Below, piece after piece: positions 29,581-51,833 of a stretch of 64,000 nt of DNA. The DNA comes from a bacterium (GTDB taxonomy: Bacteria; Joyebacterota; Joyebacteria; Joyebacterales; Joyebacteraceae). The notes beneath the pieces are model-generated. The model was not told the DNA's origin. It saw only the letters and a list, made by a program, of their open reading frames with translations, and did not search any database. The number at the start of each line of letters is the position of its first letter. The stretch's first letter is position 1. The translations under genes and the position numbers were made by a program. The stretch covers positions 1 through 64,000 of the forward strand of contig JALGZK010000007.1 in the NCBI GenBank assembly GCA_025774935.1, written 5' to 3'.

Positions 29581-30864
29581 GTGGCGACCACCGAACCGAA
29601 GGCGAGGCGAGCGGGTGAACTCCCGCAGGGCTTCTCCATCATGGCGAAGCCGACGGGTCCCGCGTGCAACCTCAACTGCGAGTACTGCTTCTATCTCGAG
29701 AAGGAAGCGCTCTTCCCGGAGGGGGAGAAGTACCGGATGCCTCGTGATGTGCTCGAGGCGTTCATCCGGAAGAACATCGAGCGCCAGGACTCTCCCGTCA
29801 TCCCCTTCGCCTGGCAGGGTGGGGAGCCGACCCTCCTCGGCGTCGACTTCTTCCGCGAGGCAGTCAGGTTCGAGAAGAAGTACGCGGCCGGCAAGGACGT
29901 CCGGAACTCCCTCCAGACGAACGGCACGCTCCTCACCGATGAGTGGTGCGAGTTTCTGGCGAAGCACGAGTTCCTCGTCGGGCTCTCCCTCGACGGTCCC
30001 GAGGACGTCCACAACAACTACCGCGTCGACCGCGGCGGGGAGCCGACGTTCGACCGCGTGATGCGCGGCCTCCATCTCCTCCAGAAACATGGCGTCGAGT
30101 ACAACATCCTCGCGTGCGTCGCCCGCGCCCATCAGAAGAGGGGCCTCGAGATCTACCGCTTCTTCAAGGAGGCGGGAGCGGAGTTCATCCAGTTCATCCC
30201 CATCGTGGAGCGCGTTCCCGGAACCGAGTCGCGCCGGCTTGGGCTCGAGCTCGGCCTGCCACCCGCGCTCGACGGGAACGAGGTCGATCCGGCCGTCACG
30301 CCCTGGACGGTCGACCGTGACGCGTACGGCGAGTTCCTCGTCGAGATCTTCGACGAGTGGGTTCGGCACGACGTCGGCACGATGTTCGTGATGCTCTTCG
30401 AGTGGACGCTCGCGAACTGGGCAGGTCTCGCTCCGGGAAGCTGCTTCTTCGAGAAGCAGTGCGGCCGCTCGACGATCATCGAGCACAACGGCGATGTCTA
30501 CTCGTGCGACCACTTCATGTACCCGGAGTATCGCCTGGGCAACGTTCTCGGCGACGACCCGAAGGCGCTGATCGATTCCGAGCGGCAGGCGACGTTCGGC
30601 GCCGCGAAGGAGGCCGCGCTCCCCGACTACTGCAGGAGCTGCGACGTCCTCTTCGCCTGCAACGGAGAGTGCCCGAAGCACAGGTTCACGACGACGCCGA
30701 CCGGAGAGCCCGGGCTGAACTACCTCTGCCCGAGCTACAAGAACTACTACCATCACGTCGCGAAGTACATGAACGTCATGCTCCAGCTTCTCAATCAGGG
30801 ACTTCCAGTCTCGAACGTGATGAAGGCGACGGAAGGGCCGCTGGTGATCCCGTACGGAGAGTGA
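29581..30864 (+). CDS. Radical SAM/SPASM protein, anaerobic sulfatase-maturase-like
   Basis: A 427-residue radical SAM enzyme: CNLNCEYCFY carries the CxxxCxxC cluster, PFAWQGGEPTLLG is the GGE SAM-contact region, and a SPASM domain has its cluster ligands in CGRSTIIEHNGDVYSCDHF and CRSCDVLFACNGECPKHRF. The match is to anSME, which oxidises a Cys or Ser of sulfatases to formylglycine in the cytoplasm. Start is GTG 29581 with GAAGGAG 5 bases before. No sulfatase gene is in the window, so the target may lie elsewhere or be different. It has its own position between a terminator and an outer-membrane gene. Confidence 0.88.
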   Translation: MATTEPKARRAGELPQGFSIMAKPTGPACNLNCEYCFYLEKEALFPEGEKYRMPRDVLEAFIRKNIERQDSPVIPFAWQGGEPTLLGVDFFREAVRFEKKYAAGKDVRNSLQTNGTLLTDEWCEFLAKHEFLVGLSLDGPEDVHNNYRVDRGGEPTFDRVMRGLHLLQKHGVEYNILACVARAHQKRGLEIYRFFKEAGAEFIQFIPIVERVPGTESRRLGLELGLPPALDGNEVDPAVTPWTVDRDAYGEFLVEIFDEWVRHDVGTMFVMLFEWTLANWAGLAPGSCFFEKQCGRSTIIEHNGDVYSCDHFMYPEYRLGNVLGDDPKALIDSERQATFGAAKEAALPDYCRSCDVLFACNGECPKHRFTTTPTGEPGLNYLCPSYKNYYHHVAKYMNVMLQLLNQGLPVSNVMKATEGPLVIPYGE

Positions 30865-30916: not shown

Positions 30917-32104
30917 ATGACCGATTTCAGGACGCCCGGCTCCCGCTCCTCGGCAGTCGGGCGACGCGGGAATCCCCACACTCGCTCGACCCGAGTCGCG
31001 CGGTTGGCTGTCTGTGCCGCTGTCGCCGCGGCGCTGCTCATCCCTGCGGAGCGCGCCCGTGCCGAGGATAGCGAGGCGGACGACTTCACCGAGAGGGTCG
31101 GGGCCCTCGTCACCGACCTCATGACGCGGGAGTCGTTCATCGTACCCCTCTTCATCTCGAACCCCACGATCGGCTCTGGCCTGGGGCTCGCTGCGGCGCT
31201 CTTCTACCAGCTCGATCCCGTCTCCCGTCCGTCGAGCACCTCTCTCGGCGCATACTACACATTCAATGACAGCTGGATCGTGGCGCTCCGTCAGATGACG
31301 TACTTCGGAGAGGGGAAGCATCGTCTCAACGCCCTCGCGGGGGGATACTCCCTGAACACCGACTACTTCGGTATCGGCTACGAGGCGGGCAGCGAGGGGG
31401 AGTCGATCGCGATCAACGAAAAGGGCTACGCGGTCGAGCCGAACTACCTCCGTCGCGTGACAGAGCACTTCTACGCCGGGATCGGGTACCGCTACATCTA
31501 CATGGACACGTCTCAGGAGCGCGGCCCACTCACGATTCCCGACGAACAGGAGAAGGTCCGGAGCTCCGCACTCGGCGGCGAGCTCGTCTACGACAGCCGC
31601 GACAACGAGCTGAATCCCCGCACCGGAACACACCTGGAGGCGTCCGCCTACGTCAACAGAGCGGCGATCGGAAGCGATACCGACTACGAGATCTACAAGA
31701 TTCAGTACAACACGTACATCGAGTTCAGCGGAGTGCGCGTGCTCGCGCTTCGCGCCATGACACGCGCCACGGCCGGCCAGGTTCCCTACTTCGATCTGAG
31801 TCGCTTCGGAGCCGGCAGCGATCTTCGCGGCTACGTGATGGGGCAGTACCGCGATCATGTGATGTATGCGGTGCAGGCTGAGGGCCGCTTCCCACTCGCG
31901 GGTCGTTTCGGCGCCGTCGTCTTCGCGGGCGTGGGGGGCATCGCGCCCGCTGTCGGTGAGTTCCGTGCCGACGAGCTCCTGCCTAGCGTCGGTACCGGAC
32001 TCCGATTCACAATCTCGGAAGAGCGCCGGATCACTGTCGGGGTCGACTACGCGGTCGGTCGGGACACGGACGGCTGGTACGCGAGGATCGGCGAGGCGTT
32101 CTGA
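30917..32104 (+). CDS. BamA-superfamily surface-antigen barrel without POTRA (copy 1)
   Basis: About 395 residues: signal sequence (hydrophobic core ARLAVCAAVAAALLIPA), a short acidic leader, then a beta-barrel of the bacterial surface antigen type (PF01103): SNPTIGSGLGLAAALFYQ, ALGGELVYDSRDNELNPRTGTHLE, FDLSRFGAGSDLRGYV (the conserved RGY loop) and a terminal IGEAF. There is no POTRA region, so it is not an assembly factor of the usual BamA kind. It aligns along its whole length with the protein at 37776-38942. Transport or secretion function unknown. Confidence 0.82.
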   Translation: MTDFRTPGSRSSAVGRRGNPHTRSTRVARLAVCAAVAAALLIPAERARAEDSEADDFTERVGALVTDLMTRESFIVPLFISNPTIGSGLGLAAALFYQLDPVSRPSSTSLGAYYTFNDSWIVALRQMTYFGEGKHRLNALAGGYSLNTDYFGIGYEAGSEGESIAINEKGYAVEPNYLRRVTEHFYAGIGYRYIYMDTSQERGPLTIPDEQEKVRSSALGGELVYDSRDNELNPRTGTHLEASAYVNRAAIGSDTDYEIYKIQYNTYIEFSGVRVLALRAMTRATAGQVPYFDLSRFGAGSDLRGYVMGQYRDHVMYAVQAEGRFPLAGRFGAVVFAGVGGIAPAVGEFRADELLPSVGTGLRFTISEERRITVGVDYAVGRDTDGWYARIGEAF

Positions 32105-32180: not shown

Positions 32181-34082
32181 GTGAGCCGAACGGGAGGTTC
32201 CTTGCGACGACTCCTCTCAGTCTTCCTTCTCTCCGCTCTCGCAGCGGCGTGTCCCGCACGCGCGGACTGGATCAATCTCACGGGCTCCGAGAGCGCGCCG
32301 AACATCGCGGAGATCTACGTGCTCGACGACCACGTCAAGGTCGTCCTCGAGGTGTACGTCGGAGACCTGCTCGTCTTCGAGAGGTTGCTTCCGGCCGAAC
32401 TCCTCCGTGACGCCGGAGTCACGCGGCGATCCGACGCCGAGCGGCTGCGCCTCTTCTCGACCGAGGACTTCCAGGTGGTCACGGAGACCGGGAAGAAGCT
32501 CCGGGCGGAGCTGGAGCTCATCGAGCCGAGGGTGAGGATCGACCGGAGGGGCCCGTTCAAGTTCATGAAGAACCCCCTCACGGGGGCGCCTCTCAGCCAG
32601 CCGCCTGACGACCCGCGTGTGCTCTACGTCGAGCTCCTCTACCACTTCGACGGCCGCCCTCCCGGCGAGCTCGTGTTCGTGCCGCCTCTCGACGCCGACG
32701 GCATGCCGAGGGTCACGATGGGCTTCATCGCCTATCACAAGAACGTCCCGATCACCGACTACCGCTATCTCGTGGCGGGGGAGAGGCTCCTCCTCGACTG
32801 GGACGATCCCTGGTACTCGACGTTCGAGAACCCGGCGCTCAAGCGCAAGCACAAGACCGGGCTCATGGGGTTCCTCTACATCGAGCCCTACGAAGTCAGG
32901 CACGAGATCCTCGTCCGCGTGAGGGAGATGGAGAACTGGATCGACCTTGGTCTCCGAGGCGACGGATACATCGAGGTCGACGAGCTCGCACCGGTCAAGC
33001 AGAAGATCGGCGAGTTCCTCACGACCAGGAACCCCGTCCTCATCGACGGCGAGTCCGTCGACCCGATCCTCGACCGCATGGAATACGTGACGGTCTCGCT
33101 CCAGGGCATCAAGTTCCTTCAGGGCCAGGAGCGCGTGGAGATTCCGGGCGCGATCGTGGGCGTCATCCTGACGTACCTCACAGACGGCATCCCGCAGAAC
33201 GTGACCGTCGACTGGGACATGTTCACCGACCAGATCCAGCAGGTTCCGGTGAATGCGATCGATCCGGCGGGACCGTTCCCCGGTTTCGTGACGCCCGAGT
33301 ACCCGGTCCACGAGTGGGTGAACTACCTCAAGACATACCGGATCCCCACGGTGACCGAGGTGAGCGTGGCCGACACCCTCGCCGTGGGCTCGATCCCGAT
33401 TCTGTCGGTCCTGTGCCTCGTGGGACTGGTGTCCGTCGGGTGGCAGTTCGCGAAGGCACGGGCATCCGGAGGTCCCACCCGCGCGTTGATCGCCGCGGCC
33501 TGTGCGCTCGTCGTCGCAGGGGCGGCGCTGTATCCGGTCGCAAGGGTCCCGGTCGGGAGGCCGGGGAGCCTCGCGGCGAGGATCGCGCCGGAGGAGCGGG
33601 CCGTGATCCTCGAGAGCCTCCTTCGGAACGTCTACCGTGCGTTCGACTTCCGCGAGGAGGAGGACGTCTACGACAAGCTCTCGGCGAGCGTGAGCGGGGA
33701 CCTCTTGGCGGACGTGTACCTTCAGAACCGGCAGTCGTTCGAGGTCCAGCGTGCGGGAGGGGCGAAGGCGAAGGTGAAGGACGTCGAGATCGTCAAGCTC
33801 GACGTCACCGATCACCCGGAACGGCGCGGCGCGCTCGCGTTCGAGTCTACGTGGACGGCGTTCGGGACCGTGGGGCACTGGGGGCACATCCACGGGAGGA
33901 AGAACCAGTACGACGCCGTCCTCGCCGTCGAGCCAGTGGGAGGTGCCTGGAAGATCACAGGACTCGACCTCATCGAGGAGTCGAGGATAGACCTCTACGC
34001 ACAGCCCGCGCCTCCGGACTCCGCAGCGGGGCGTGTGACCGTGCCGGAGATCAGGGCCACGGGTTCGGGGGGAGCGCCATGA
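32181..34082 (+). CDS. Membrane-anchored protein with C-terminal HWGHIH domain
   Basis: A 633-residue protein: signal peptide (1-28), a ~380-residue periplasmic beta-rich region (INLTGSESAPNIAEIYVLDDHVKVVLEV...), two membrane spans near 415-455 (IPILSVLCLVGLVSVGW, ALIAAACALVVAGAALYPVA), then a ~130-residue domain (about 470-610: LLRNVYRAFDFREEEDVYDKL, GDLLADVYLQNR, HWGHIHGRKNQYDA, WKITGLDLIEE). That domain recurs in the protein at 46150. The stop overlaps the ABC ATPase start by 4 bases, so it is the first gene of the metal-type ABC operon. A TTG at 32202 with GGGAGG upstream is an alternative start. I know no name for it; a metal-linked role is inferred from context. Confidence 0.7.
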   Translation: MSRTGGSLRRLLSVFLLSALAAACPARADWINLTGSESAPNIAEIYVLDDHVKVVLEVYVGDLLVFERLLPAELLRDAGVTRRSDAERLRLFSTEDFQVVTETGKKLRAELELIEPRVRIDRRGPFKFMKNPLTGAPLSQPPDDPRVLYVELLYHFDGRPPGELVFVPPLDADGMPRVTMGFIAYHKNVPITDYRYLVAGERLLLDWDDPWYSTFENPALKRKHKTGLMGFLYIEPYEVRHEILVRVREMENWIDLGLRGDGYIEVDELAPVKQKIGEFLTTRNPVLIDGESVDPILDRMEYVTVSLQGIKFLQGQERVEIPGAIVGVILTYLTDGIPQNVTVDWDMFTDQIQQVPVNAIDPAGPFPGFVTPEYPVHEWVNYLKTYRIPTVTEVSVADTLAVGSIPILSVLCLVGLVSVGWQFAKARASGGPTRALIAAACALVVAGAALYPVARVPVGRPGSLAARIAPEERAVILESLLRNVYRAFDFREEEDVYDKLSASVSGDLLADVYLQNRQSFEVQRAGGAKAKVKDVEIVKLDVTDHPERRGALAFESTWTAFGTVGHWGHIHGRKNQYDAVLAVEPVGGAWKITGLDLIEESRIDLYAQPAPPDSAAGRVTVPEIRATGSGGAP

Positions 34083-34747
34083 TCTCCGTCCGGGGACTCG
34101 AGTTCAAATACGAAGGCGGTGAGTTCCACCTCACGATGCCCGAGTTCGGAGTCGAGAGAGGGGAGAAGGTCGCCGTCATCGGACCCTCGGGGTCGGGCAA
34201 GACGACTCTCCTGAACCTCCTTGCCGGCATCCTCTCGCCCGTGGCGGGGACGATCACGGTCGCCGGAACGGAGGTCAGCGCCCTCGGCGACACCGAGCGC
34301 CGGGACTTCCGCATAACGACGATCGGATTCGTGTTCCAAGACTTCGAGCTTCTCGACTACCTCACGGTGACGGACAACATCCTCCTCCCATACCGCATCA
34401 CGAGCGCCCTCGCCCTCGACCGCGACGTCCGCGCGCGCGCCACGGCGCTCGCGGGGGAGATGGGGATCAGCGACCTCGTCCAGCGGCACCCGAGCGAGCT
34501 CTCCCAGGGCGAGAAGCAGCGCGCCGCCATCTGCCGCGCACTCCTCCCGCGTCCGAGGCTCATCCTCGCCGACGAGGCCACCGGCAACCTCGACCCGGTC
34601 AACAAGACGCACATCCTCGACCTGCTCTTTCGGAGCGTCGACCATCACGAGGCGACGCTCCTCGCGGTCACGCACGACCACGAACTCCTCGACAGGTTCG
34701 ACCGCGTCGCTGACTTCAAGGACTTCCACGCGTGGGGGGACGCATGA
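34079..34747 (+). CDS. ABC transporter ATP-binding protein, LolD/MacB-type
   Basis: A 222-residue ATPase: Walker A GPSGSGKTTLLNLLAG, Q-loop FVFQDFELLDYLTV, signature LSQGEKQRAAICRALL and Walker B LILADEATGNLD. The TGNLD D-loop and the short size are characteristic of LolD/MacB/FtsE-type subunits, which power mechanical work or export rather than classical import. It overlaps the gene before and the permease after by 4 bases each. Within this operon it serves the FtsX-like permease. Confidence 0.93.
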   Translation: MISVRGLEFKYEGGEFHLTMPEFGVERGEKVAVIGPSGSGKTTLLNLLAGILSPVAGTITVAGTEVSALGDTERRDFRITTIGFVFQDFELLDYLTVTDNILLPYRITSALALDRDVRARATALAGEMGISDLVQRHPSELSQGEKQRAAICRALLPRPRLILADEATGNLDPVNKTHILDLLFRSVDHHEATLLAVTHDHELLDRFDRVADFKDFHAWGDA

Positions 34748-35925
34748 TCGACAACCTCTACCTCGCGTGGCAGTACGTGCGGTTCAACCGCGCGAAGTAC
34801 TGGACGCTCGTCGCCTGTATCACCCTGGTCGCGTTCCTCCCGATCGCTCTCGAGCTGCTGCTCGACGAGAGCGAGAAGCAGCTCCTGTCGCGTGCCGTGA
34901 CCACTCCACTCGTGATCGGAGCGAAGGGTAGCTCGCTCGACCTCGTGATGAACTCCCTGTACTTCGGGGACGAGGTGCCCGAGATCATCACCATGGGGGC
35001 GGCACAGGACGTGGCGGAGACGAGCCTCGCGCTTCCCATTCCCGTATACGTCAGGTTCCGCGCGCGGGGGCACCCGATCGTCGGCACGACCGTCGACTAC
35101 TTCGACTTCCGCGGGCTCGACGTTGCGGACGGCCGGATGATCGCCGTTCTCGGGGACTGCGTCCTCGGGGCGACCGCCGCGCAGCGGCTCGGTGTCGGGG
35201 TCGGCGACGGTGTCGTGTCGTCTCCGGAGACGGTCTTCGATCTCGCGGGCGTCTACCCGCTCAGGATGAACATCGTCGGTGTTCTCGAGAGGACGCACAC
35301 GTCGGACGACCTCGGCATCTTCGTCGACCTCAAGACCGCGTGGATCATGCAGGGCCTCGTTCACGGGCATCAGGACCTCACGACGGTCGAGGACCAGCAG
35401 CTCATCCTCACTGAGGAGGAGGGGAACGTCGTCGGAAGCCCGAAGGTCTTCGAGTTCACCGAGATCACCCAGGAGAACCTCGACTCGTTCCACTTCCACG
35501 GCGACGAAGCGGCCGCGCCGATCACGGCGGTCATCGCGGTTCCCGTCGACGAGAAGTCCGGCACGATCCTCCGCGGGCGCTATCTCACGCCGGAAGCAGT
35601 CCATCAAATCATCGTGCCGAAGGAAGTGATCGACGGTCTTCTCACCAACATCTTCCGGATCAAGAACGTCCTAGACGCCGTCATCCTCGTGGTTGGTCTC
35701 GCGACCGTGCTCGCGATGATCCTCGTCTTCGCGCTCTCGCTCAGGCTCAGGAGGCGCGAGATCGACACGATCTTCAGAATCGGATGCGGGCGTGCTACCA
35801 TCACGCGGCTTCTGGCGGCGGAAATCGGCATCATCGTGGTGTCGAGCGCTGTCCTCATCGGTGCTCTCGCGGCCGCGGTCGCGCGTTACGACCACGCTTT
35901 GGTTCGCATGCTCTTCATTCGGTAG
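34744..35925 (+). CDS. FtsX/MacB-type ABC permease
   Basis: A 393-residue permease: one N-terminal membrane helix (about 20-40, YWTLVACITLVAFLPIALELL), a ~260-residue extracytoplasmic domain, then three helices (about 305-385). This layout is that of FtsX/LolC/MacB permeases. The periplasmic part contains HFHGDEAAAP, a possible metal-binding patch, and the last loop reads RRREIDTIFRIGCGRATI, typical of the family's coupling region. The start overlaps the ATPase stop (ATGA). Its partner is a ZnuA-like binding protein 50 bases downstream. Confidence 0.85.
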   Translation: MIDNLYLAWQYVRFNRAKYWTLVACITLVAFLPIALELLLDESEKQLLSRAVTTPLVIGAKGSSLDLVMNSLYFGDEVPEIITMGAAQDVAETSLALPIPVYVRFRARGHPIVGTTVDYFDFRGLDVADGRMIAVLGDCVLGATAAQRLGVGVGDGVVSSPETVFDLAGVYPLRMNIVGVLERTHTSDDLGIFVDLKTAWIMQGLVHGHQDLTTVEDQQLILTEEEGNVVGSPKVFEFTEITQENLDSFHFHGDEAAAPITAVIAVPVDEKSGTILRGRYLTPEAVHQIIVPKEVIDGLLTNIFRIKNVLDAVILVVGLATVLAMILVFALSLRLRRREIDTIFRIGCGRATITRLLAAEIGIIVVSSAVLIGALAAAVARYDHALVRMLFIR

Positions 35926-35975
35926 GAGCGTGGGGACGGCGTCGCGAGGGCGCGCGCATGGAAAGGGGGAGAACC

Positions 35976-36896
35976 ATGTCGGCGGTGACACGTCTCTCGA
36001 CTCTCCTCATCGCGGGCGCTGTCGTCGCCGGCCTGCTCGTCGCTCACGCGCCGCACGCTGCCGCCGATGACCCCTTGACCGTCTACACGGTCAGCTACCC
36101 GCTCGCATACTTCGCGGAACGAATCGGCGGCGACCACGTGAAGGTCACCTTCCCCGCGCCGCCCGACGTCGATCCGGCCTACTGGATGCCCGACGCGAAC
36201 ACGATCGCCGGCTACCAGGGCGCGGACGTGATCCTGCTGAACGGGGCAGGATACGCCGACTGGGTCGAGAAGACCGCGCTCTCGCAGTTCCGCCTGGTCG
36301 ACACGGCCGCCGGGTTCGCCGACGTTCTCATCGAGCTGGACGACATCGTGACGCACAGCCACGGTCCGACCGGCGAGCACTCGCACGAGGGGACGCTCGC
36401 ATTCACGACGTGGCTTGACTTCCGGCTGGCGGTGCTCCAGGCCGGGGCGGTCGAGGAAGCGCTGTCGAAGCGGCGCCCCGCCCTGGCGAAGGAGCTCGAC
36501 GCGAACTTCGAGGAGCTGAAGGCCGACCTCCAAGCGATCGACGACGCGATCTCGGAAATCACCGCGTCGATCGAGGAACTCCCTCTCGTGATGTCCCACC
36601 CCGTCTATCAGTACTTCACGAGGCGCTACGGCCTCAACGCCGTGAGCGTGCACTGGGAGCCCGACGTGGTCCCCGACGCCCCGCAGTGGCTCGAGTTCGA
36701 GGAGCTCCTCCAGAGTCATCCGGCGGAGTGGATGATCTGGGAAGGCGAGCCGCTCGAGGCCTCGGTAGCGAAGCTCGCGGCGGCGGGCGTGGGCAGCACG
36801 GTCTTCGATCCGTGTGGCAACAGGCCGGAGGAAGGTGACTTCCTCGCTGTGATGAACGAGAACGTCGAGAACCTGCGCGCGGCCTACGAGGACTAG
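35976..36896 (+). CDS. ZnuA/TroA-like metal-binding periplasmic protein
   Basis: A 306-residue exported protein of the metal-receptor (cluster A-I) type: VYTVSYPLAYFAERIGGDHV at the start of the mature part, PDANTIAGYQGADVILLNGAGYADW, a His-rich loop near residue 125 (THSHGPTGEHSHEG), LVMSHPVYQYFTRRYGL, and DPCGNRPEEGDFLAVM. The His-rich loop and conserved order are those of zinc receptors. ATG 35976 was chosen for its GGGGGAG 5 bases upstream; ATG 35958 is in frame. It lies 50 bases after an FtsX-like permease instead of a ZnuB-like one, which is unusual. Zinc binding is inferred. Confidence 0.85.
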   Translation: MSAVTRLSTLLIAGAVVAGLLVAHAPHAAADDPLTVYTVSYPLAYFAERIGGDHVKVTFPAPPDVDPAYWMPDANTIAGYQGADVILLNGAGYADWVEKTALSQFRLVDTAAGFADVLIELDDIVTHSHGPTGEHSHEGTLAFTTWLDFRLAVLQAGAVEEALSKRRPALAKELDANFEELKADLQAIDDAISEITASIEELPLVMSHPVYQYFTRRYGLNAVSVHWEPDVVPDAPQWLEFEELLQSHPAEWMIWEGEPLEASVAKLAAAGVGSTVFDPCGNRPEEGDFLAVMNENVENLRAAYED

Positions 36897-37775: not shown

Positions 37776-38942
37776 ATGGCCGGAGTACGTTCGAACGCAG
37801 CAGGACTCGCCTGCGCGCCTCGCGTCCTTGGCCTCGCGGTCCTCGTCGGCGCTCTGTGCCTGGCGTCGACCCCGGTCCTGGCCGGGGAGTCCGACAGCGA
37901 GGAGGTCGATACGGCAAAGGACATCCTGGAGGTCACGTCGAGCGGGCGCGACTTCGTCTTTATGCCGATCCCGATCGCGAACCCCACGGTCGGGGCGGGG
38001 CTCGGCCTCGCCGGGATGTTCCTCTACCAGCTCGCCCCCGACGCGTCCCCGTCGACCACAACGATCGCGGGGTTCTACACGAGCTCGAAGACTTGGGGGA
38101 CGGGTGTCCTGCAGGAAACCTACTTCGCCGGGAACCGGCACAGACTCAGCGGCCTCCTGGGCTACTTCAGCCTCAACTATGACTTCTACGGCGTCGGGCA
38201 GGAGCCTGGAGAGGCGGACAGGTACCTCCCACTGAACCAGAGCGGGCTCTTCTTCGTCCCGGAGTATCACCTCCGAGTGAGCGAGCATGCCTACCTCGGC
38301 GTCCTCTACAGGCTCGCCAGGATCGAGAGCGAGATCAGGATCGACGAGACGGACCCTCCGGGCTGGTGGGACCGTCCGAACCCGACGTGGGAGACGCAGA
38401 GTTCAGGTCTCGGGTTCATCGTCGAGTACGACAGCCGCGACAACCACCTGAACCCGCAGGGCGGGCACTTCCTCGACACGTCGATCACGTTCAACGCGGA
38501 GTGGCTCGGGAGCGACAAGAGGTACCAGATCTACGAGGGCTCCTACAACTACTACTGGGGGAGGAAGTCCGGACACGTGGTTGCCTACCGGCTCCACACC
38601 AGAGTCGCGAAGGGCGACGTGCCGATCTTCGACCTCAGCTACTACGGCGAGAGGAGCGACCTCCGCGGCTACTCGGCCGGCACGTATCAGGACAACTTCC
38701 TTCTCTGCACCCAGCTCGAGTACCGGTGGAGATTCCACAGGAAGTGGGGTGTGGTGGCGTTCGCGGGGACCGGCGGCGTGGCGCCCTCGATCTCGGACAT
38801 GGACTGGGGGAACGGCCTCCCGAGCGCGGGCCTCGGAATCCGGTACATGGCATCCGAGGATTACGCCACCAACGTCGGCATCGACTACGCGGTCGGCATC
38901 GACGGCGGAGTCTTCTACTTCCGAATCGGCGAGGCGTTCTGA
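37776..38942 (+). CDS. BamA-superfamily surface-antigen barrel without POTRA (copy 2)
   Basis: A 388-residue paralogue of the protein at 30917-32104. Signal peptide (about 1-37), acidic linker (GESDSEEVDTAKDIL), then the same barrel landmarks: IANPTVGAGLGLAGMFLYQ, GLGFIVEYDSRDNHLNPQGGHFLD, FDLSYYGERSDLRGYSAGTYQ and a terminal IGEAF. No POTRA domain. GGAGG is 6 bases upstream of the ATG. The two copies lie near opposite ends of a 12-kb envelope region with related neighbours, suggesting a duplicated segment. Confidence 0.82.
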   Translation: MAGVRSNAAGLACAPRVLGLAVLVGALCLASTPVLAGESDSEEVDTAKDILEVTSSGRDFVFMPIPIANPTVGAGLGLAGMFLYQLAPDASPSTTTIAGFYTSSKTWGTGVLQETYFAGNRHRLSGLLGYFSLNYDFYGVGQEPGEADRYLPLNQSGLFFVPEYHLRVSEHAYLGVLYRLARIESEIRIDETDPPGWWDRPNPTWETQSSGLGFIVEYDSRDNHLNPQGGHFLDTSITFNAEWLGSDKRYQIYEGSYNYYWGRKSGHVVAYRLHTRVAKGDVPIFDLSYYGERSDLRGYSAGTYQDNFLLCTQLEYRWRFHRKWGVVAFAGTGGVAPSISDMDWGNGLPSAGLGIRYMASEDYATNVGIDYAVGIDGGVFYFRIGEAF

Positions 38943-45226: not shown

Positions 45227-46153
45227 ATGGCCGGTACAGCAGAAGGCGCCGGGAAGCTCCGGCGATGGCTCCGGAGCCCGCTCCTTCACTTCTTCGTGCT
45301 CGGGCTGGTCGTCTTCGGCCTCCACGCTCTCCTTAACCTGGAGGCGGAGACGTCCCGCAGGGACCCGCATCTCGTCGAGATCACCTCTGCCGACATCGAG
45401 TTCCTCCGCACGAACTGGAACCGCCTCATGGGCCGCGAGCCGACAGCCGACGAGCTCGAGCGTCTGCTCGGGGACTTCATCCGCGAGGAGGTGCTCTACC
45501 GCGAGGCGCTAGGGATGGGGCTCGACCAGCACGACACGGTGATTCGGCGCCGGCTCGCGCAGAAGATGGACTTCCTCTTCAAGGACCTCGCGGAGATGAA
45601 CGAACCCTCCGACGAGGAGGTCGTGACCTACTTCGATGCGAACGCCGAGCGCTACCGCGCTCCGGCGACGGTGAGCTTCACGCACGTGTACTTCAGTCCC
45701 GATCTCCGGGGCGACCGGGCCTTTGCTGATGCGGAGGCCGCGCTGGCCGACGTCCGCGCGCGCGGCGTCGATCCGTCCGTCGATCAGGACGAGACCGCCT
45801 CGCTCGGCGACCGGTTCATGTTGCAGAGCTACTACCCGCGCCAGACGTACGAGAGCGCCGCGTGGGAGTTCGGTCGGGGTTTCGCCGCCGCGCTTCCGGA
45901 CCTTGAGACGGGGGAGTGGCACGGCCCAGTCGGGTCGGGGTTCGGTCTTCATCTCGTGTACCTTCACGAGAGGGTGGAACCCAGGCTCCCGGGACTCGAC
46001 GAGGTTCGCCAGCGCGTCGTGACTGACCTCCTCGCCGACAGGCGTCAGATGGTGAACAGGGCGGCCTACGCCGAGATCAGCTCGCGCTACACGATCCTCG
46101 TCGAGGACATGCCCTACCGCGTTGCCGGCGAGAGCGGAGAGGAGACGCGATGA
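45227..46153 (+). CDS. Membrane-anchored PpiC/SurA-like peptidyl-prolyl isomerase
   Basis: A 308-residue protein with an N-terminal anchor (LLHFFVLGLVVFGLHALL), a SurA-like helical chaperone part (about 50-150: FLRTNWNRLMGREPTADELERLLGDFIREEVLYREAL, QHDTVIRRRLAQKMDFL), and a parvulin-like domain (about 150-260: YRAPATVSFTHVYFS, YESAAWEFGRGFAAALPDLETGEWHGPVGSGFGLHLVYL). It should help fold exported proteins on the periplasmic side. It overlaps the next gene by 4 bases (ATGA). Similar PpiC proteins are known to me next to HupE-like and DUF3604 genes, which is what follows here. Confidence 0.87.
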   Translation: MAGTAEGAGKLRRWLRSPLLHFFVLGLVVFGLHALLNLEAETSRRDPHLVEITSADIEFLRTNWNRLMGREPTADELERLLGDFIREEVLYREALGMGLDQHDTVIRRRLAQKMDFLFKDLAEMNEPSDEEVVTYFDANAERYRAPATVSFTHVYFSPDLRGDRAFADAEAALADVRARGVDPSVDQDETASLGDRFMLQSYYPRQTYESAAWEFGRGFAAALPDLETGEWHGPVGSGFGLHLVYLHERVEPRLPGLDEVRQRVVTDLLADRRQMVNRAAYAEISSRYTILVEDMPYRVAGESGEETR

Positions 46154-47237: not shown

Positions 47238-49457
47238 ATGAGCACGAAGCGAATCCGCGCCGGCGTCGCGATCGCCGTCGCGTGCGCGTTGCTGGTGAGC
47301 GTCGGGGTCGGTGGCGCGATGGCCCAGGAGCCGAACCCGCTCAAGAACGCGTACTTCGGCGACCTTCACGTGCATACGAGCTGGTCGCCCGACGCGTTCA
47401 CGGCAGGCGTTCGGGTCACGCCCGACGACGCTTACATCTACGCGAAGGGCGGAGAGATCGACCACACGAGCGGCGTGAAGGTGAAGCTCCTTTCGGGGCC
47501 GCTCGACTTCTACGCCGTCACAGATCACTCAGAGTACATGGGCGTCCTGCCGGGTATGCTCGACCCGAACAACCCGCTCTCGGAGCATCCGCTGGCGGTG
47601 GACATCCTGGGCGACGATCCGACCGCACAGCAGCAGGCGCTCTTCCAGGTCGTGGCGAGCATCACCGGTGAGATTCCGCCGATTGAGGAATTCGCCGACG
47701 AGGACGTCTCCAGAACCATGTGGCAGGAGATCCAGGACATCGCCGACGAGCACTACGAGCCCGGCGACTTCACGACGTTCATCGCCTACGAGTGGACCTC
47801 GAACGGGCCCGACGGCTGGCAGAATCTCCACCGGAACATCATCTTCCGCGACAGGGACGTCCCGGACCTGCCGTACTCGTCGATGGCGTCCGAGAAGCCG
47901 GAGGATCTCTGGAACTGGATGGACGCGCAGCGCACCGAAGGCGCGACGCTTCTCGCGATCCCTCACAACTCGAACCTCTCCGACGGTCTCATGTTCCCGC
48001 TCGTCGACTCGTACGGGAAGCCGATCGACCGCGCGTACGCCGAGCAGCGCATGAGGAACGAGCCGATCGTCGAGATGACGCAGATCAAGGGCACCTCCGA
48101 GACGCATCCTCTGCTCTCCGACACCGACGAGTTCGCCGGGTTCGAGATCTCCGACTTCCTGCTCAAGATGTCCGACATCGGAGCGACGGGGCCGGCGAAG
48201 GGAAGCTACGTGCGGGACGCGTACAAGTCAGGACTCGTCTTCGAGGAAGCGACCGGCGCTAACCCGTACAAGTTCGGCATGATGGGCTCCTCCGACACGC
48301 ACAACGCAGGTGCGCCCGTCGAGGAGTTCAACTACTTCGGGAAGATCGGCCGGGAGGACGGCACCCCCGAGGCGCGCATCCTCGAGGACGACGCGCTCGC
48401 GCCATTGAGAAGGAGCTGGGGCGCGTCCGGCCTGGCAGCCGTCTGGGCAGAGGAGAACACGCGCGAGGCGATCTACGACGCGCTCGCTCGGAAGGAGTGC
48501 TTCGCGACCTCCGGACCGCGGATGCAGGTCAGGCTCTTCGGCGGCTGGGACTATACGTTCAAGGACGTGAACCACCCCGACTTCCTGTCGATCGGCTACG
48601 ACAAGGGCGTCACGATGGGCGGCGACCTGCCCCTGACCGATGCGCTTGAGCGGGGTCCCGCCTTCCTCCTGTGGGCCGTGAAGGACCCGAACGGGGCGAA
48701 CCTCGACCGGATCCAGATCGTCAAGGGCTGGACATACCGGGGTCAGACGTTCGAGATGGTCCACGACGCCGCGGTCTCCGACGGCCGCGTCGTGAACCTG
48801 AACACCGGCCTCATGCCCGAGGTTGGAAGCACGGTGAACCTGGCCGGCGCCTCCTACGACAACTCGATCGGCGACGCCGAGCTCAGGGGAATCTGGCGAG
48901 ACGAGGGCTTCGACCCGACCGTCCGCTCGTTCTACTACGCGCGCGTACTGCAGATCCCGACGCCGAGGTACACGACCTACGACGCCATGCGGCTCGGTGT
49001 AGCCCCGCCCGAACCCTCGACGATTCAGGAGCGAGCGTGGTCGTCTCCGATCTGGTACACGCCGAGCGCCGAGGACGAGGCGAGCGGGAAGGAAGGGGCG
49101 GTCACCGTCGCGAGCGTCGAGGCGGAGGGCGGGAGAGCTCTGACGACCGAGGAGCTCAAGGACCTCCTCGTCGGGAAGCTCGTCACCATCAGGAACAACG
49201 TGACGGGTCAGGTCACGGGCTCCCTCTTCACGCTGGACGGGATCCGCTGGAGGGGAGAGGACGCGGGGTTCGCCGCCATGCACGGCGGTTCGGACATTTC
49301 GGGCAACCCCTACGAGATCAAGGAGGGGAGGCTCTTCACCACGTTCGACGATGGGAGCGAGTTCTCTGCGAAGGTCTACAAGCTCGGGTCCAGGTTCCTG
49401 GGCGCGAAGAGCGACGAAGCCGGGTATGTGAACTACGAGATCACAGGCATGCGCTAG
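47238..49457 (+). CDS. Exported DUF3604 protein (PHP-like metal-dependent fold)
   Basis: A 739-residue exported protein (signal peptide ending GGAMAQ). It matches DUF3604 (PF12228): LKNAYFGDLHVHTSWSPDAF at the start (D-x-H-x-H-T metal-site pattern), DFYAVTDHSEYMG, IAYEWTS, LAIPHNSNLSDG, GMMGSSDTHNAG, RKECFATSGPRMQVRLFGGW and RIQIVKGW. The His/Asp pattern suggests a PHP-like hydrolase, but no substrate is established. GGGGGAG is 5 bases before the ATG. It is separated from the HupE-like gene by 44 bases and probably belongs to the same unit. The last ~120 residues look like an added beta domain. Confidence 0.88.
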   Translation: MSTKRIRAGVAIAVACALLVSVGVGGAMAQEPNPLKNAYFGDLHVHTSWSPDAFTAGVRVTPDDAYIYAKGGEIDHTSGVKVKLLSGPLDFYAVTDHSEYMGVLPGMLDPNNPLSEHPLAVDILGDDPTAQQQALFQVVASITGEIPPIEEFADEDVSRTMWQEIQDIADEHYEPGDFTTFIAYEWTSNGPDGWQNLHRNIIFRDRDVPDLPYSSMASEKPEDLWNWMDAQRTEGATLLAIPHNSNLSDGLMFPLVDSYGKPIDRAYAEQRMRNEPIVEMTQIKGTSETHPLLSDTDEFAGFEISDFLLKMSDIGATGPAKGSYVRDAYKSGLVFEEATGANPYKFGMMGSSDTHNAGAPVEEFNYFGKIGREDGTPEARILEDDALAPLRRSWGASGLAAVWAEENTREAIYDALARKECFATSGPRMQVRLFGGWDYTFKDVNHPDFLSIGYDKGVTMGGDLPLTDALERGPAFLLWAVKDPNGANLDRIQIVKGWTYRGQTFEMVHDAAVSDGRVVNLNTGLMPEVGSTVNLAGASYDNSIGDAELRGIWRDEGFDPTVRSFYYARVLQIPTPRYTTYDAMRLGVAPPEPSTIQERAWSSPIWYTPSAEDEASGKEGAVTVASVEAEGGRALTTEELKDLLVGKLVTIRNNVTGQVTGSLFTLDGIRWRGEDAGFAAMHGGSDISGNPYEIKEGRLFTTFDDGSEFSAKVYKLGSRFLGAKSDEAGYVNYEITGMR

Positions 49458-49718: not shown

Positions 49719-51833
49719 GTGAGAACGATGCTCATCCTCGCGGTGGCAGTCGTTCTGGCGATCGCCCTGCCTGTCACGGCGAGCGAGATCCACGACGCGG
49801 CCGCCGAAGGAGATGATGCGCGAGTGAAGGAACTCCTGAAGGAGAATCCGGAGCTCGCGCTCGAGAAGGACGTAAGGAACGAGACGGTCCTCCACATCGC
49901 GGCCCGTGAGGGCCATCTCGAAGTGGTCAAGGCCGCGCTCAAGGCGGGAGCCCCCATCGACATCGGCGACAACGAGGGGAGCACGCCGCTCGATGTCGCG
50001 GCGATCTTCGGACACATGGAGCTCGCCGAGTACCTCGTCAAGAAGGGCGCCGCCATCGACCACGCCGACGTCAACGGCCTCACGCCCCTGCATTTCGCCG
50101 CCTACAACGAGCAGCCCGAGATCACCGCGTTCCTGATCGAACGCGGCGCCGACGTCAGCGCCTTGACGGCTGGCAGCAGCACCCCGCTCCACGGCGCCGC
50201 CTACAACGGCGACGTCGCTACCATGACGGTCCTCCTCGAGAACGGCGCCGATCCGAACGCAAGAAACAGCGCCGGCTACACGCCGATCCTGAGCGGAGCC
50301 GCTGTGAACGGCGGACTCGACGCGATCGAGCTTCTCGTCGCTCACGGAGCGGACATCTACGACCGCGTACACGAGGGCTCGAGCGCGCTCATGTTCGCGG
50401 CCGCCGCCGGAAAGCCCGATCTCGTCCGCTACTTCCTCGAGGCGGGCGTGCCTCCGGACGCGCGGAACAACCACGAGTGGATGGCGATCCATACCGCCGC
50501 CGAGGGCGGCAACGTCGAGATCATCGACATCCTCGTCGAGAACGGGGCCGACGTGAACGCAGGCTGCGGGTTCGGAAGGACTGCCGTCACCTGGGCAGTG
50601 CTCCGCAGTCACCAGGAAGCGACGGCGCGGCTTCTCGAGCTCGGCGCCGATCCCGACCCTGTGGACGACTGGGGCGGCACGCCGCTCGCGCGCGCGTTCC
50701 TGAACGGTGACATCGAGATCGCGCGACTCCTGATCAGCGCCGGCGCCGATGTCAACAGGCCGGCGGGTGACTGGGAGCGCTCGATCCTGCACACCGCCGC
50801 CGTCAGCGGCCGGACCGACCTCATCGCGCTGGCCGTCGAGTTCTCCGCCGACGTGAACGCTGTCGATGCCTACGGAATGACTCCGATCGAGTACGCGGCA
50901 CGCTACGGGCACAAGGACGCGGCGGACGCGCTCATCGCGGCGGGCGCTCGGGCCGAAGGCCTTGAGGAGAACTACGGTCGCCCCGAGCTCCTCGACCAGC
51001 GTGTCGCGGACGGCGAGGCGGTGATGTGGTATCTTGGTCACTGCGGGTTCGCCGTCAAGACGAGAGACCACTTCATGGTCTTCGACTACTGGAAGGACGA
51101 CGACGCACCAGCGTCCGCCTCGCTCTCGAACGGCCACATCGTGGCGTCTGAACTCGACGGCCAGAACGTTGTCGTCTTCGTCACCCACGGCCACGGCGAC
51201 CACTTCGATCCTCGGATCTTCGATTGGGCCGACTCCGTCGGGAAGATCGAGTACGTCTACGGGTTCCGTCCCGAGCTCACGGAGCCGTACCGCACGGACG
51301 GATACGAGGGTCCGGAGTATCAGTTCATTGGTCCCCGTGAGCAGGCCACGTTCGGCGACGTCGAGGTAAGGACGATCGAGGCGAACGACGGCGGCGTCGG
51401 GTTCCTGGTCTCGGTCGACGGCATCGTCCTCTATCACGCCGGCGACCACGCCGGGTGGGCCGAGGGCGAGCGCGACGGGTATTTCGCCGAGATCGACTAC
51501 CTCGACCCGTTCGTGGACGAGCTCGACCTGGCGTTCGTGAACGTCACGGGCTGTCACGCGCACGACCCCGATCGGCTCCGCGAGGGCAACCTCTACACGA
51601 TGGAGAAGCTCAAGCCAGCGGTGGTCGTCCCGACGCACGCGTTCAATCGGGAGTACGCCTACGCCGACGCGGCGGTGGAGTTCGCGGAGGCCGGCTGCAC
51701 CACGCCGTGCTGTCTCCCGGTGAACTGCGGCGACAGCTTCGTCTACTCGAGCGGCAGGGTCGCGATCCTCGCCCCCGCCATCCCGGCAGGAAGCGCGATG
51801 GCGAACGCGACGGTTCCTACCTGCGCGCCCTGA
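49719..51833 (+). CDS. Exported ankyrin-repeat/metallo-beta-lactamase-fold fusion
   Basis: A 704-residue protein: signal peptide (ending PVTAS), about eleven ankyrin repeats (residues ~25-415; G-x-TPLH-AA and L-GAD-N units such as NGLTPLHFAAYNEQPEITAFLIERGADV), then a metallo-beta-lactamase domain (about 425-690) with VFVTHGHGDHFDP (H-x-H-x-D-H), YHAGDHAGW and PTHAFNREYAYADAA, plus a Cys-rich patch (CTTPCCLPVNCG). The second part resembles UlaG-like hydrolases, which act on sugar lactones or phosphodiesters. I do not recall this fusion as a named family. Start is GTG 49719 with GGGAGGAG close upstream. Periplasmic by inference. Confidence 0.82.
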   Translation: MRTMLILAVAVVLAIALPVTASEIHDAAAEGDDARVKELLKENPELALEKDVRNETVLHIAAREGHLEVVKAALKAGAPIDIGDNEGSTPLDVAAIFGHMELAEYLVKKGAAIDHADVNGLTPLHFAAYNEQPEITAFLIERGADVSALTAGSSTPLHGAAYNGDVATMTVLLENGADPNARNSAGYTPILSGAAVNGGLDAIELLVAHGADIYDRVHEGSSALMFAAAAGKPDLVRYFLEAGVPPDARNNHEWMAIHTAAEGGNVEIIDILVENGADVNAGCGFGRTAVTWAVLRSHQEATARLLELGADPDPVDDWGGTPLARAFLNGDIEIARLLISAGADVNRPAGDWERSILHTAAVSGRTDLIALAVEFSADVNAVDAYGMTPIEYAARYGHKDAADALIAAGARAEGLEENYGRPELLDQRVADGEAVMWYLGHCGFAVKTRDHFMVFDYWKDDDAPASASLSNGHIVASELDGQNVVVFVTHGHGDHFDPRIFDWADSVGKIEYVYGFRPELTEPYRTDGYEGPEYQFIGPREQATFGDVEVRTIEANDGGVGFLVSVDGIVLYHAGDHAGWAEGERDGYFAEIDYLDPFVDELDLAFVNVTGCHAHDPDRLREGNLYTMEKLKPAVVVPTHAFNREYAYADAAVEFAEAGCTTPCCLPVNCGDSFVYSSGRVAILAPAIPAGSAMANATVPTCAP

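Follow-up and report, generated by a model that had tools for sequence, protein, structure and literature searches.

What is the function of a domain with three closely spaced histidines that is found at the C-termini of two otherwise different membrane proteins? The question is raised by the window, a stretch of 64,000 nucleotides from one bacterial contig, in which the initial annotation had aligned the C-terminal ~130 residues of the proteins encoded at 32181 and 46150 (here P0001 and P0002; Table 1) and had proposed a metal-handling accessory domain. The alignment was borne out by BLASTP (37% identity over 173 aa, E 1e-32); i.e., the two C-termini are homologous, and the similarity is limited to the last transmembrane (TM) helix and the C-terminal domain. 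The N-terminal parts differ, as had been claimed, with ~370 aa of periplasmic sequence in P0001 and a ~115 aa HupE/UreJ-type domain in P0002.

The histidine-triad domain and its two carriers

Table 1. Features of the window discussed in the text
Feature	Position	Strand	Remarks
P0001	32181..34082	+	signal peptide, periplasmic region of ~370 aa, TM helices 401-419 and 435-453, HxxHxH domain; opens the ABC operon
C-terminal HxxHxH domain of P0001	33594..33992	+	residues ~472-604
HWGHIH motif of P0001	33876..33893	+	H566, H569, H571
ABC-type ATPase subunit	34079..34747	+	PF00005
MacB/FtsX-type permease	34732..35925	+	invariant periplasmic pairs H211xH213, H254xH256
ZnuA-family periplasmic protein	35958..36896	+	PF01297; start codon uncertain (35958 or 35976)
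PpiC-type peptidyl-prolyl isomerase	45227..46153	+	Rotamase_2; membrane-anchored
P0002	46150..47193	+	signal peptide, extracytoplasmic domain of the HupE/UreJ type, TM helices 151-169 and 179-197, HxxHxH domain
C-terminal HxxHxH domain of P0002	46804..47190	+	residues ~219-347
HWGHVH motif of P0002	47074..47091	+	
DUF3604 exported protein	47238..49457	+	PF12228; invariant H/D residues taken to be PHP-like; possible client

A search of the window's own genome returned exactly two copies of the domain, those of P0001 and P0002. Pfam and NCBIfam have no family that matches either protein, PDB sequences gave no meaningful match to a profile of the domain or of full-length P0001, and a scan of viral contigs with P0002 found no relatives. 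Signal peptides and helices were assigned from hydropathy. The loops between the two helices are positively charged in both proteins, so that by the positive-inside rule the domain is probably periplasmic, following a two-helix TM hairpin.

Scanning genome contigs with P0001 yielded 80 loci, the record titles of which cover Gammaproteobacteria, Desulfobacterales, other deltaproteobacteria, Bacteroidota, Acidobacteria, Gemmatimonadota, Myxococcota, Planctomycetota and Sulfurovum; when 50 of the genomes were searched with a domain profile, paralogues turned up. In an alignment of 91 non-redundant domains, with all classes counted, H566, H569 and H571 are each invariant (91/91), so the histidines suggested at the outset as metal ligands are conserved across the family. 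The intervening residues vary (W567, 78/91; G568, 86/91), giving motifs such as HWGHIH, HFGHRH, HWNHIH, HQNHVH, HWQHIH and HLDHIH, and the conserved pattern is therefore H-x-x-H-x-H. Y485, L500, W558 and W590 are also invariant. The HxxHxH domain is real, without a name in databases, and present in several phyla. P0001-family genes are broken over two or three reading frames at three loci (L043, L064, L065), which are either assembly errors or decaying copies.

Conservation of histidines can also reflect catalysis, which counts against a metal reading, and the domain might be an enzyme under the control of the ABC transporter described below, e.g., a hydrolase or isomerase of the periplasm in which the histidines are catalytic. 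The invariant aromatics Y485, W558 and W590 could line a pocket, and the helix-then-strand layout resembles, in our impression, the NTF2-like fold, which includes enzymes. However, no acid accompanies the histidines invariantly in all classes of the 91-domain alignment, and the sole NTF2-like hint is a match of one member to MecA_N (E 0.1), so an enzymatic role appears improbable.

The HupE-like N-terminus attributed to P0002 stood in part. Its N-terminal domain resembles the region preceding the HupE/UreJ core in relatives, matching those of the core-bearing proteins of L159 (E 4.7e-10) and L123 (E 6e-9), and is of the extracytoplasmic type. However, the TM core (PF13795/PF04955) gave no Pfam match in P0001 or P0002, each of which has, besides its signal peptide, two predicted TM helices; P0002 itself is no HupE transporter. 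A recent duplication of P0001 was rejected as the origin of P0002, as in the tree P0002 groups apart from P0001 in a clade of its own (with L120, L122, L124 and L154; support 100/99), next to the HupE-core class and among relatives linked to HupE, PpiC and DUF3604.

Linkage of the domain to an ABC transporter

P0001 opens an ABC operon that includes a ZnuA-like protein, in agreement with the initial annotation and as the Pfam matches describe. At 45 of the 55 evaluable loci the whole series lies within 7 kb, with the domain protein followed by the ABC ATPase, the FtsX/MacB permease and the ZnuA-like protein; two further loci have the ABC and FtsX genes only, and eight (L012, L024, L030, L049, L050, L058, L079 and L083) have no ABC, FtsX or ZnuA genes in that interval. 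Genomes of the Colwellia and Sulfurovum types are among those with the operon. At L024 and L058 a metallo-beta-lactamase-type (MBL) gene lies near the P0001-family gene in their place. Two similar Omp85-like outer-membrane proteins flank the operon region of the window (30917-32104 and 37776-38942, both +), and upstream lies a SPASM radical-SAM protein like anaerobic sulfatase-maturating enzymes (29581-30864, +), which is also present in L005.

The association is also seen in presence and absence. Genome samples were taken from the class of G054 (274), the phylum of G047 (249) and the phylum of G066 (247), 770 together, and a permease orthologue was defined as a match above 390 bits. The domain occurs in 4/274, 8/249 and 5/247 genomes and the high-scoring permease in 6, 9 and 6, respectively; all 17 domain genomes carry the permease orthologue, which is found without the domain in four others. 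With the six genomes known beforehand to carry the family removed, the comparison is 11/11 against 15/764 (hypergeometric p ~1e-21, a value made optimistic by the relatedness of the genomes, although the three groups agree). In three genomes (G687, G702, G940) domain and permease are both present and not adjacent. The domain is tied by gene order and by presence and absence to one transporter system.

The second locus appears to belong to the same system. P0002 lies between the PpiC-type isomerase and the DUF3604 protein and has the same neighbours in L120, L122, L124 and L154. In a further class the domain is joined to a HupE/UreJ core and a P0001-like middle region (L115-L118, L152, L153, L158-L160), and a PF13795 or PF04955 core was found in the fused relatives of L115, L117, L123, L152 and L159. 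The gene order is DUF3604-PpiC-HupE/domain-ABC in L123; in L159 the DUF3604/PpiC/HupE-domain set adjoins ZnuA-FtsX-ABC; and in L164 six genes are contiguous (DUF3604, PpiC, HupE-type/domain, ABC, FtsX, ZnuA). As all six stand in a row in one genome, the two loci of the window appear to be two halves of a single module. Immediately downstream of the window's DUF3604 gene, ankyrin repeats are fused to an MBL/UlaG-like C-terminal region (49719-51833, +).

The ZnuA-like protein is a member of PF01297 (E 1.9e-42), and its ligands were examined by alignment to the solved zinc-binding solute-binding proteins (SBPs) 1pq4 and AdcA. His1 is replaced (PAYWMP where the solved proteins have PHTYEP), as is His2 (TTWLD, where the others carry a histidine two before W), and His3 (SHPxY) is kept. 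Among its relatives (46 aligned, then 58 scanned) the DPAxWxP-type sequence was found in 58/58, TTW in 53/58, SHPxY in 56/58 and an HxHGxxGxHxH loop in 50/58. As two of the three canonical zinc ligands have been lost, neither zinc nor nickel can be deduced from family names, and the protein should not be called a zinc SBP or a zinc transporter on its family name alone. A PCu(A)C copper chaperone is encoded in one ABC-FtsX-ZnuA operon (L199:4789-5433), by a gene that overlaps the ABC gene at the start of the latter; this is a single case, and a general copper role was dropped for that reason.

The permease matches only MacB_PCD and, weakly, FtsX in Pfam, with no ZnuB-type match. Its two HxH pairs lie between TM1 and the C-terminal helices and are invariant in 65-66 of 66 orthologues. 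No import is known for permeases of the FtsX/MacB type, which counts against reading the operon as a second, Zrg-like metal-uptake system in which the ZnuA-like and HxxHxH proteins capture metal that is then imported through the permease. The SBP without canonical ligands also argues against such a system, which would moreover leave the DUF3604, PpiC and MBL links unexplained. Uptake is nevertheless a reading with some basis, albeit an unlikely one: the permease is distantly related to Zrg-like permeases (matches of 75-96 bits), one of which (L197) lies in a context with ArsR and COG0523-like genes, and zrgABCDE is required for growth of V. cholerae when zinc is limiting (PMC9820375).

The MacB_PCD and FtsX folds would equally suit an export or mechanotransmission machine in the style of MacB or FtsEX, acting on a small molecule, a lipid or a protein, in which the histidines would be metal-sensing or structural. 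FadL-type porins lie close to several loci, and the nearest studied MacB-type relative, the PA4064-PA4065 pair, has been argued to be a MacB-type exporter, with pyochelin as the proposed substrate, rather than a metal mover, the function of PA4063 and PA4066 being unclear (PMC11481552); this also counts against metal delivery. However, no MacA- or TolC-type gene recurs beside the operon in the neighbourhoods examined, and conserved histidine sets occur in three separate proteins of the system. Export appears somewhat less probable still than uptake.

Candidate clients and a possible route for metal

Two kinds of exported hydrolase accompany the system. At 12/55 loci the gene directly upstream, on the same strand, encodes an exported MBL hydrolase, GntH-like by NCBIfam (E 1.6e-138); the window's own genome has two GntH-like MBL hydrolases, elsewhere. 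DUF3604 occurs in 3/20 genomes of the window's phylum, the same three that carry the domain, and these belong to a single genus. In twelve DUF3604 copies the residues D42, H44, H46, D96, H97, H198, H243, H290, D353 and H355 are invariant, a set that we take to be a PHP-like pattern; PDB sequences gave no match to the DUF3604 protein. Recurrent neighbours beyond PpiC, DUF3604, MBL and FadL were sought around the loci and none was found, and a search of the papers available returned nothing relevant on DUF3604, on GntH with guanitoxin, or on ZnuA with FtsX and HupE. The DUF3604 and MBL enzymes are proposed here as candidate clients of the domain.

Several genes near the domain do have links to metals: the ZnuA-family SBP, the HupE/UreJ cores of relatives, the exported MBL hydrolases and, once, the PCu(A)C chaperone. 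With these neighbours and the invariant triad, a metal-handling accessory domain is the best reading of the sequences and a candidate function; the original proposal is partly supported.

More specifically, we favor, at a probability of about 0.55, a periplasmic, ATP-driven metal-delivery module in which the HxxHxH domain passes metal to exported hydrolases. The shared domain would be the periplasmic metal-binding module of a multi-gene system, rather than a single fold employed twice for unrelated purposes. The ZnuA-like protein and the MacB/FtsX-type transporter would handle a transition-metal ion (zinc, copper, nickel or another metal) in the periplasm, ATP hydrolysis would move the periplasmic parts of the permease, and its HxH pairs may relay the metal between the ZnuA-like protein and the HxxHxH domain. 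The domain would then pass it to the co-encoded DUF3604 proteins and GntH-like MBL enzymes, the folding of which may be assisted by the PpiC foldase. The sequences themselves show the homology, the invariant histidines, the conserved operon, the co-occurrence and the fused gene order; that metal is bound, in which direction it moves and that the enzymes are clients is what we infer. Counting against delivery are the eight loci without nearby ABC genes, the adjacency of MBL genes at 12/55 loci only, and the missing His1 and His2 of canonical zinc SBPs.

A bolder version is offered tentatively, as distinctly less probable than delivery as such: an ATP-driven periplasmic metallation machine in which the MacB/FtsX-type transporter imports nothing but powers the supply of metal by a repurposed ZnuA-like carrier to the HxxHxH domain and, through it, to secreted metallohydrolases (DUF3604, GntH-like MBL), with PpiC taking part. 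Such a machine, if real, would be previously undescribed. How exported enzymes are supplied with metal outside the cytoplasm is mostly obscure beyond a few copper and nickel chaperones, and an operon that combined ATPase and carrier with a candidate domain for delivery and with candidate clients would open the question to direct tests. An unannotated domain of several phyla would also gain a name.

Comparison with known systems

Secondary transport of nickel or cobalt is the putative function of HupE/UreJ proteins (PMC2667541). P0002 shares their N-terminal extracytoplasmic domain, and the core is present in fused relatives; in contrast, P0001 and P0002 lack the core, and the C-terminal HxxHxH domain is additional. 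The SBP of the operon, like that of ZnuABC (cluster A-I), is a PF01297 member; it retains His3 together with a histidine loop, but its family has His1 and His2 replaced, and the permease is of the FtsX/MacB type and not ZnuB. The type VII ABC fold is shared with FtsEX, which is reported to pass signals through the membrane to peptidoglycan hydrolases of the periplasm and not to act as a transporter; however, the sequence relation is limited to the FtsX C-terminal region (E 0.01), and no cell-division genes were seen nearby.

The closest system is Zrg/PA4063-PA4066. It shares with the window operon a split MacB-type ABC transporter, the ATPase and the FtsX-like permease of which are separate proteins, and metal-binding partners in the periplasm, which are putative here; ZrgA is needed for growth of V. 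cholerae under zinc limitation (PMC9820375). Two Zrg-like permeases (L197:5667-7025 and L198:5978-7321) contain a histidine-rich stretch in the region that corresponds to the invariant HxH pairs of the window permease. The relation is nevertheless distant, as orthologues of the window permease score 390-634 bits against 75-96 for Zrg-like and other distant permeases, and no protein of the operon has a Pfam match to a ZrgA-type (DUF2796) protein. In the periplasm the operon has a ZnuA-family protein and the HxxHxH protein as partners, and the module is best read as a distant relative of the Zrg zinc systems, possibly with secreted hydrolases as its metallation targets.
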